Shown in pieces: positions 5,025 through 61,765 of a DNA stretch of 64,000 nt. Source of the stretch: Nannobrachium achirus (taxonomy: Eukaryota > Chordata > Actinopteri > Myctophiformes > Myctophidae); the NCBI GenBank assembly GCA_963921795.1, contig OY997640.1:57149171-57213170 (forward strand), read 5' to 3'. The translations under genes were made by a program, and so were the position numbers. The notes below the pieces were generated by a model. The model was given only the letters and a program-made list of their open reading frames with translations, did not search any database and had not been told where the DNA came from. Within the stretch, counting starts at the first letter, position 1, and the number at the start of each line of letters is the position of its first letter.

Positions 5025-7320
5025 GACTAAGTGGTAAAAGAAAATCCATTATCAGATCGTGGTACAAGGGACAATAAAAAACTAAATGCAATGCATTTCT
5101 TTTCACTTTCAACAAAAGTGTGTTCTACTCATCAATACCATCATAACGTCCAGCCTCCAACGTAAACATACAACATATGGTCTGTGCTTCAGGGATGTGC
5201 CGTTTTGCTGAGTCATCTGTGAATGATCAATCAGAGCCCTTTAGTCATCAATACGGTCTCCTAGGGGACAGGCTAACGGGTGCCGCCACGGTTACGTCAC
5301 TAGGGAGACAAAGATCTCAGTTGTCGTGGCAACTCTGACACATGCAGGTGCATAGGGAGACTAATTAAGTCAAGTGAGACTCCTGTAATCACACTCTTTG
5401 TCTCTTCCACTGTATTCGTGTATGTAAGACACACACACACAATCTCTCTCTCTCTCTCTCTCTCTCTCTCTCTCTCTCTCTCTCTCTCTCTCTCTCTCTC
5501 TCTCTCTCTCTCTCTCTCTCTCTTTGGTGACTCATATTACAAACACTGTGTTCTTAATGACAGTAAACTTGGTAATATAAACTGATGCCTTATGTTATCA
5601 AATCAATACACAAGGGTTTAGCACACACACTCACATACACAACCATACACAGTTATACAGAAAACCACACAATAATATACACAGACACGCGATCACTAAA
5701 AGAAAAGCACAGTTAATGGAAGAGATCTTATCATTGTGCAAATGAAAAATGTGGTGGCTCTTTCAGCAGAGCGCACGCACGCACACACACGCACACGCGC
5801 ACACACACACACACACACACACACACACACACACACACACACACACACACACACACACACACTTATATATGTGTATATTAATCACACAAGCAGTCAAGCA
5901 CACAAAAAAAAACATCAAAGCAGGTCTGACTCCTAAATGAGAAAGAATGAATTGCTAATGAGGGCCACACTTCTGTTGTGGTTGGACATGAATATGAATG
6001 ATGTCATATATCCATATACCACCAAAAGCCCTGTTATATTTATTTTCGTGCAGGTGTCGCTCATCAAAAATAAGCAGTCTATAAACTCACAATGCATTGG
6101 GACCTTGCAGTTCAACAGTTTTTGGTGCACGAAACTGGAATCAGACTTAATGTGAACATAATGTGACATACAGTATATCTGATCTGCTTTGCTGAAAAAA
6201 ATCAGTCTGTATCTGAAATATCATTTTTTGGAGCACGAAAATACAATGCTGGAGCACTAAGAATTCCCTCTTTCATGCAACAAACGTAACTCAGGTTCCG
6301 ATCATTGTTTTTCTGTGCCATCTGGCTGACTGGTACAGTACATCTCACATTATGCCCGTTATATTATTATATATTACTCAGGAACCGAGCGAAGACGAGG
6401 CCCGGGACGAGTAAGACAGACGGCACGAAGAGGGCACAAGGCAGAGACTGGAAGGAGAGGAAAATAGCCAATCTACAAGCTCACAATGCGCCGCATCGCG
6501 ACGCATTGTGAGCTTGTAGGTCTGCTATTTTCAGATGGGCAGTGGAAAAATGGAGCAGAGGAAGAGGAGGGAGGGATGGAAGCGGGTGGGGGACACGTGG
6601 GTGTGTGATGTATAATAGATGACCCCCGACTGATGCTTTTGCTCTCATCCGCCTCCCCCCCACTCCCCCCACTCCCCTTCATTCCCCCTCTACTCCTCTC
6701 CCTTATTCCCACAGCCCCTCTTCTCAGTCACTGCTATCCGTCTCCTGTTTCCTCCTCTCTCTCTCTCTCCCTCCATCCCGTCCTCTCTCTCCGACTCACT
6801 CGTCATCCCTGTTCTTGCTGTCTTTTGCCTGCCCGTTGTTCTTTTCTGGTGGCTGATGTGTCTGTTTTCAGCATGTTCTATTCTGTTCTATTCCACCGTA
6901 CAGCATACTGGGCTTGTTCATATCAGATGAGATCAGATCATTCTATTCCATTTTGTTCTTATACCAGGCTCTCCCTTATCAGATATGATATGTTCTACAC
7001 ATGGGCTCTTCCCTATCAGATAAGAACGTTCTATTCTATTTATGTGAGCAACTGCACACACACACACGCACGCACGCACGCACGCACGCGCGCACACACA
7101 CACACACAAACACCTCATCCATAACTCTCAGTTTACATACAGCTTACACGCTCAGTTCACACTAAAGGACTGCAATGGAAAGAAGCTTTTAGCTTTCTTT
7201 GTGTTCATCCTTTTGACAGTGGTATGCAGTGCAGCTGCATGTTTTTTGTTTTATCATTGTCAATAAAGATGCCAATTCAGATCAATTCAATTCAATTCTT
7301 TACTGGGCTCTTCCCTATCA
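5025..7320. other. Non-coding DNA with (TC)n, (CA)n and minisatellite tracts
   Basis: (TC)n at 5443-5522 and (CA)n at 5775-5862. From 6880 a loose minisatellite with unit containing gggctcttccctatcagat recurs to 7320 and again at 8805-8960. Open frames here are low-complexity artefacts. Confidence 0.5.
6460..6532. repeat. Palindromic module copy (stem-loop)
   Basis: Arms gaaaatagccaatctacaag and its near-complement around a GC-rich loop. No host transposon boundary recognised here. Confidence 0.8.

Positions 7321-61765: not shown

Follow-up and report, generated by a model that had tools for sequence, protein, structure and literature searches.

A shared hairpin module at the core of at least eight short element families in Nannobrachium achirus

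At least eight element families in the genome of Nannobrachium achirus have one palindromic module as their core. This module is analyzed here in a window of 64,000 nucleotides (the whole stretch of contig OY997640.1 from position 57,149,171 to 57,213,170) and in further loci of the genome. It is best explained as an old hairpin, nearly perfect and ~73-83 bp long, around which many short TIR families, several of them hAT-type, are built. For its history, the account that we tentatively favor, at a little under an even chance, is that the stem of this old core was re-matched and extended by template switching, and that element halves can be rejoined there.

The initial annotation listed 19 places for the module in the window. 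A half-arm profile search of the window recovers all 19 as the palindromic module or a half thereof, with significant arms and E-values down to 4e-12, and the reversed window, used as a control, returns a single weak row (E 2.3). Two half modules are found beyond that list, at 3757-3786 (E 7.5e-8) and 45742-45758 (E 4.8e-4). A covariance model finds 16 two-armed places in the window at E<0.001, including the 12 window copies on which it was trained and whose rows match by construction. Three of the 19 listed places are half modules (14055, 55722 and 57957) and four have lost the centre (11648, 41333, 44470 and 53233). The consensus arm is (T)AGTGAAAATAGC[C/A]GATCTACAAGCTCACAACGC[G/C]TCGC with a loop of ~3 bases; the exact core word is found at just 3 places in the window, and the other copies are changed matches. 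The proposed folding of the hairpins was carried out for seven modules as single-stranded DNA. The six that keep the centre fold at -29 to -47 kcal/mol (z -10 to -17), with the best copy at -47 kcal/mol and z -16.6, and the one with a lost centre folds at -16 kcal/mol (z -6). Rfam gives 0 matches at gathering score in the window, and one module copy gives 14 matches, including several unrelated miRNA models, all below gathering score. Two matches in other organisms were set aside: one in a viral contig (L001), judged by eye to be a chance match in a coding stretch, and one among prokaryote genomes, in a planctomycete contig (L002), taken as chance.

Three hAT-like families, A, B and E, carry the module in the window, and their hosts have the TIRs and 8-bp target duplications (TSDs) of hAT-type MITEs. 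In the coordinates that follow, half modules are located by the arm profile and all others by the covariance model. Family A has ends TAGGGCTGTCAC and five window copies, with a full hairpin at 9358..9434 (+, also supported by its fold), modules with a lost centre at 41334..41392 (+) and 53235..53286 (+) and half modules at 14074..14096 (-) and 57955..57986 (-). Its hAT-type hosts at 41119..41525 (+) and 57742..58089 (+) have the TSDs GGTGGTAG and TTCTACAT, and the latter directly adjoins an E host. Family B is represented by a host at 11418..11835 (+, ends CAGTGGTTCTCAACC) with a module that has lost its centre (11649..11709, +), by a full module at 51465..51541 (+) and by a half module at 55737..55768 (-) in a copy nested in another hAT-type element. 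Family E, with ends CAGGGGTCTTCAAC, has a host at 57261..57733 (+, TSD TTCTACAT) that holds a full module (57413..57489, -), and an E remnant holds the newly found half module at 3757..3786 (+). The TSD is perfect (8/8) at A 41119, A 57742, E 57261, 14433-14927 (C), 59770-60787 (F) and 55481-55894, matches at 6/8 bases at B 11418 and matches with a shift of one base at A 53020 and A 13964. The TSD test of the window hosts finds none at A 9143, B 36129 and 53599-54174. At 57253-58097, E and A stand back to back, and the 8-bp TSD TTCTACAT appears three times, on the outer side of each element and at their junction, which makes this a tandem hAT-type insertion. Back-to-back elements like this pair at 57261-58089, which shares one 8-bp duplication, are described as tandem TE insertions in the available part of PMC12368964, whose subject is inversions; the hairpin module is a separate question.

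Six host end types had been proposed for the module, and this holds in part: five lie within elements that bear a perfect 8-bp TSD and the sixth (B 11418) has 6/8, but three of the six hosts are shells around nested carriers. The place at 55722 is a B copy nested within the TAGGGCATTCAC element at 55481..55894 (-, hAT-type, TSD CTCTGTAG). The place at 60599 is an E-related piece, with its module at 60596..60674 (-), nested within the TAGGGCTGGGACG element at 59770..60787 (+, hAT-type, TSD GTGTGTGG). The CAGGGGCGTCAC ends belong to the outer shell of a separate module carrier, CD. This fourth carrier has two modules in long inverted repeats. One CD copy lies inside the hAT-type shell at 14433..14927 (+, TSD GACAAGGA), with modules in its left (14505..14581, +) and right (14772..14848, -) inverted repeats. 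The second, at 53599-54174, lies within a longer inverted repeat and has modules at 53638..53714 (+) and 54057..54135 (-), and another CD element has a module with a lost centre at 44472..44522 (-). Beyond the CD repeat of the second copy, the flanks AACCCATTTAGGC...GCCTAAATGGGTT are also mutually inverted, so that, compared with the copy at 14433-14927, either the palindromic frame or the ends of this copy are longer. TTAA duplications considered around the CD element were dropped, since TGCTTTAAC...GTTAAAGCA proves in random loci to belong to the CD repeat.

Family G, which includes the full module at 58371..58447 (+), has 37-bp inverted repeats on either side of the core, 46-76 bp away. The decayed module at 49674..49756 (+) has flanks related to family G, and an earlier reading of 58372 and 49674 as solitary copies is rejected, both belonging to G or resembling it. 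The remaining window copies are a full module at 6458..6534 (+) with asymmetric flanks and no flank relative in the loci examined, a module with a decayed left arm at 15196..15272 (+) and the short half module at 45742..45758 (-), absent from the earlier list. Random and targeted loci add the families H, I, J, K and M. When modules are linked through typed flanks alone, they fall into separate groups: CD with 18 modules, E with 15, B with 9, G with 7, I with 6, A with 5, an E-related group with 4, J with 4, H with 2, M with 2 and a second pair of CD.

The flank analyses use 89 two-armed modules, of which 35 come from 60 targeted loci, 42 from 25 random loci and 12 from the window. The targeted loci were chosen for the exact word among the first places listed, on one contig. 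The set comprises modules with two complete arms away from locus edges; single arms, arms without their base, modules at locus edges and the overlapping loci L003-L010 are left out. Under loose flank clustering 61/89 modules merge into one cluster, and under stricter clustering A, CD and E are still together in one cluster of 39. Restricting the links to typed sides pulls these three apart; untyped sides had carried the joins, and cluster counts are therefore not family counts.

That one module sits in several unrelated TIR families is borne out in the window, where module identity across eight contexts is 0.64-0.89 and flanks are at chance. Among A, B, E, 6460 and 58372 the modules are 0.83-0.89 identical. 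In 112 comparisons of 60-bp flanks, 5 lie above the 95% level of shuffles and 1 above the 99% level, as chance predicts; the sole pair above the 99% level (0.59) is A-B left, at 0.61. When longer flanks are compared, two pairs prove to be connected: 58372 and 49674, which share a cluster as well, and, by a weak link, B and 15199. The number of separate contexts is therefore seven at most rather than eight. At the host ends, identity is 0.61-0.67 for B-E, 0.69 for the right ends of B-CD and 0.43-0.48 for A-B and A-E. The B and E hosts are thus alike at their ends, and not all families are fully independent.

The module is abundant throughout the genome. The exact 20-base arm word GCAGATCTACAAGCTCACAA occurs 50,208 times (25,166 + 25,042) in the 1,658,514,493-base genome, and the reversed word, as a control, 0 + 0 times. 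A family B arm word occurs 14,283 + 13,972 times genome-wide (control 0). An unselected sample of 25 loci of 10 kb each, taken at 10 Mb on contigs C1-C15 and at 20 Mb on C1-C10 and comprising 235,970 known bases, holds 102 modules (47 two-armed and 55 single arms), or 1 per 2,313 bases. The first 20 of these loci hold 132 arms and their reversed sequence none. A rough extrapolation gives ~0.7 million module copies in the genome, single arms included.

The window and loci also hold features of other kinds. A second, unrelated palindromic repeat is present at 35219-35416 and 51071-51291, with arms of 56-61 bp that are 78% alike between the two places, and another long inverted repeat lies at 41975-42220. 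Locus L014 has two small units (7342 and 8748), 1.4 kb apart, with a 19-base arm and near-identical flanks, in which the AAAAC that precedes the arm faces a TGTTTT that follows it. The regions 26784-28650 and 36584-38446 resemble each other in two stretches each, one pair of 283 bp (90%) and one of 191 bp (85%), which suggests a tandem duplication of a gene that we take to be a sterol oxidase; Pfam gives no match for the two reading frames tried in this putative duplication. Exon-like frames with Kelch and BACK domains lie at 46402-46734 and 55018-55353, and the start of an M14 carboxypeptidase domain lies at 17440-17811.

Frequent occurrence of hosts lacking the module is not supported: among the 22 host copies that have both flanks, taken from the window and from random and hit-centred loci, 20 contain an insert, 30-102 bp long. 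These copies derive from the 25 of 42 left-flank matches that reach the module side, 3 of the 25 being without a right partner. The insert is present in 8/8 copies of A (30-102 bp), 5/6 of B (67-87 bp) and 7/8 of E (31-71 bp); the exceptions are one E copy with 5 bp and one B copy with none. Module-less copies in the window are a B copy at 36129..36473 (-) and an E copy at 3881..4203 (-), the latter with the site CTTTAGCC-AATTTT-CGGCAAAG. The module-less E copy keeps AA and TTTT arm stubs between the same flanks, and its site folds poorly (-1.6 kcal/mol, with 13/200 shuffles as good); the site of B 36129 is non-palindromic by eye. The graded insert lengths and the E arm stubs disfavor a reading of these two copies as empty sites and make deletion of the palindrome the likelier origin of both.

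The symmetry around the module is inverted and family-specific and is not a target duplication, as the initial annotation had observed: the bases of the outer stem vary by family and nevertheless pair. Paired stem ends by family are TAGTG(G), TTGTG, TTT(A)GCC with one unpaired base, GTGCTG and ATCG, and single copies have TTCACC (L018) and TGGGACAGA. In the single copy L041 a similar other sequence stands on both arms even in place of AATAGC. Direct repeats around the module in eight contexts, with boundary shifts allowed, are none of them longer than in random flanks. Across 20 flank clusters of the 89 modules, with the mixed A/CD/E cluster counted as one, mean arm identity rises from 0.72 beside the loop to 0.96 at mid-core and is 0.88 in the outer core. 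It is then 0.60 at flank positions -4..-1, 0.42 at -8..-5 and 0.15-0.31 beyond, with a null of 0.25-0.28. Long inverted flank similarity is not general, as 8/89 modules score >=30 and 4.6% of random module pairs do so. The copy at 6460 has no symmetric flank and lies in a non-palindromic site. The part of the stem symmetry that consists of GTG, in A, B, G and 15199, may be ancestral rather than derived from the host.

Changes within the core are also matched between arms. In 12 chosen window copies, 11 of them distinct and chosen with four two-armed places of lost centre left out, two-sided changes affect 14/38 pairs and 30 cells, against 7.6 and 11.8 when shuffled, a level that 0/500 shuffles reach. 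Further pair types are not in excess in these 12 copies (160/500 shuffles). The distance between arms in eight lineages is 0.143 within a copy against 0.214 and 0.178 between copies, and in six well-kept lineages it is 0.083 against 0.175 and 0.131. Of the site patterns in the eight lineages, 75 unite the two arms of a single copy and 13 unite the same side across copies, with one column accounting for 10 of the 13. There are 14 symmetric departures, where whole-arm permutation gives 4.8 (p 0.0005), and of 40 asymmetric departures 22 fall in two decayed copies. Both signs of a hairpin made by template switching, matched changes on the two arms and extension of the stem, are therefore present. 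A C/A mismatch at column 13 (GCC versus GCA) occurs in 9/20 cluster consensuses, including B, G, H, I and J, in which the surrounding stem differs, and also in the window copies of A, E and 6460. At an arm site of family B, 20 arm pairs counted by eye among the first 100 of 28,255 places listed comprise 11 A/A, 1 C/C and 8 mixed pairs; 12 matched and 8 mixed equal independence, and so give no sign of current arm matching at this site. In all five CD modules of the window, one arm retains GATATAC and the opposite arm GATCTAC. Taken together, the column 13 mismatch, the independence at the B site and the CD arm difference indicate that matching seems to have occurred when families were founded rather than continuously.

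Typing of the flanks assigns 59 of the 89 modules to the same family on both sides, a count that is partly circular because the end types were set from the same outputs, and leaves 20 with one side unknown, 8 with both unknown and 2 mixed. A mixed assignment of L078 (G with K) is rejected, as this is a G copy with label overlap. Only two clear chimeras occur among the 89 modules. In L080, the second of the mixed modules, an E2-type flank (0.90 over 41 bp) stands opposite a B flank (0.90-0.94 over 31 bp), and in L045, which belongs to the modules typed with one side unknown, an E flank (0.94 over 93 bp) meets a flank of the E-related type E3 (0.88 over 93 bp). The E3 flank is that of the E-related copy L018:1502, and in L045 related flanks face each other over 51 bases. 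L093, with a CD side and an E-like side, may be a third chimera. A palindromic core would allow halves to be joined in either orientation, and two cases are few.

In the favored account, the hairpin would form during replication or repair and the polymerase would switch template at the stem, so that one side is copied onto the other. Such a switch would re-match the arms and extend the stem by ~4-8 bp with the family's own sequence. Since the core is its own reverse complement, any half should be joinable to any other half, and a switch or recombination between two copies could join any element half to any other and thereby create new families with the same core. Once formed, each new combination would be multiplied by the transposases that recognize the ends. 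With a self-complementary core prone to template switching, one process would account for the family-specific matched stems, the absence of target duplications around the module, the central deletions and the chimeras. Several observations count against this account: the independence of the arms at the family B site, the arm difference kept by the CD modules, the C/A mismatch at column 13, the asymmetric flanks of 6460, further pair types that are not in excess, the limited extent of long inverted flank similarity, the small number of clear chimeras and the possibly ancestral GTG symmetry. In a bolder version, which we regard as doubtful, the hairpin would be an exchange hub for transposons that has no transposase of its own and keeps founding TIR families, hence its ~0.7 million copies.

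A serious rival, to which we assign a rather low probability, is that the module is an ordinary nested mini-MITE, that is, a fold-back transposon in its own right (TA-specific Tc1/mariner-type or Angel-like) that inserted into hosts which then amplified. Copies in A, G and 15199 read TA-GTG...CAC-TA, and TA duplications would mimic extra symmetric bases; B, E, CD, 6460 and 49674, however, have no TA at the stem end and hence lack the TA duplication of a Tc1/mariner insertion. The very high copy number is what such an element would show, as are the flanks without relatives in the loci examined for 6460 and 11 singleton clusters, and the Izsvak model for Angel, as retold in the accessible portion of PMC12628747, inserts a stem-loop by local homology. 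The model is opposed by the lack of direct repeats above chance in the eight contexts, by the family-specific symmetric stems of B, E, J, H and L041 and by the 22 host copies, which include no convincing empty site. Common descent, in which the B, E and CD hosts derive from one old hAT family with the hairpin and their outer parts diverged or were replaced while the core stayed, appears unlikely. It would explain why the families carry the module nearly always and why ends are 0.67 and 0.61 identical between B and E and 0.69 between the right ends of B and CD, but the A-B and A-E ends are only 0.43-0.48 identical and G has its own 37-bp inverted repeats 46-76 bp from the core. The module-side flanks are moreover at chance overall, yet the modules of A, B, E, 6460 and 58372 are 0.83-0.89 identical.

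Less probable again is specific insertion of the hairpin into short palindromes or hairpin tips, the flank symmetry then coming from the target. Symmetric flanks of ~4-8 bp in many families agree with it, and the module-less E site CTTTAGCC-AATTTT-CGGCAAAG is a weak stem, but one that folds poorly and fits deletion, and both 6460 and the other module-less site, B 36129 (by eye), are non-palindromic. It is very improbable that selection on an RNA, such as a small-RNA precursor, a terminator or another structured RNA, keeps the stem paired. The two-sided changes and the sub-threshold matches to several unrelated miRNA models count in its favor; those 14 matches, however, span unrelated families, as any hairpin might, Rfam gives none at gathering score, the module is present in very many copies inside mobile elements and family-specific stem extension is not predicted. 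Template switching at an old hairpin core remains our preferred account.

Angel is reportedly a palindromic MITE of zebrafish, presented by Izsvak et al. in 1999. The module is like Angel in structure and copy number, a high-copy inverted repeat able to form a stem-loop, and has both the near-perfect palindrome and the high copy number of Angel-like palindromic MITEs; it is unlike Angel in that one hairpin core lies here inside many TIR families with different ends. A single hairpin core serving many TIR families was not found in the open-access literature, where absence says little, and the letters of the arm sequence have no match there. To our knowledge, the conserved domains of SINEs and the MER6 MITE are not hairpins, whereas the core here is a palindrome with family-specific stems. 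As far as the accessible text of PMC6887750 goes, those domains are, as here, one short module in otherwise unrelated families. Already known, from the parts available of each source, are Angel-type palindromic MITEs and stem-loop amplification, with stem-loop amplification and insertion by local homology proposed for Angel (PMC12628747) and compensatory changes on both arms reported for two of its copies (PMC3636048), and template switching in hairpins, which predicts matched multi-base changes and stem extension (PMC8794818). Matched changes and stem extension are likewise seen here. The available text of PMC8794818 concerns RNA genes, whereas the present case concerns repeat families, with the rejoining of element halves at the hairpin as a further, conjectural step. 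Quasi-palindrome correction in yeast, in the excerpt available of PMC3820800, extends identity between the arms of imperfect inverted repeats, as here; that work treats yeast mutations, and here the repeat is common to element families.

The origin of short element families with new ends is poorly understood. If the favored account is true, the shared core, the family-specific matched stems and the recombinant halves would connect the birth of such families with template switching driven by hairpins, and would caution against taking paired stem changes as proof of RNA function.
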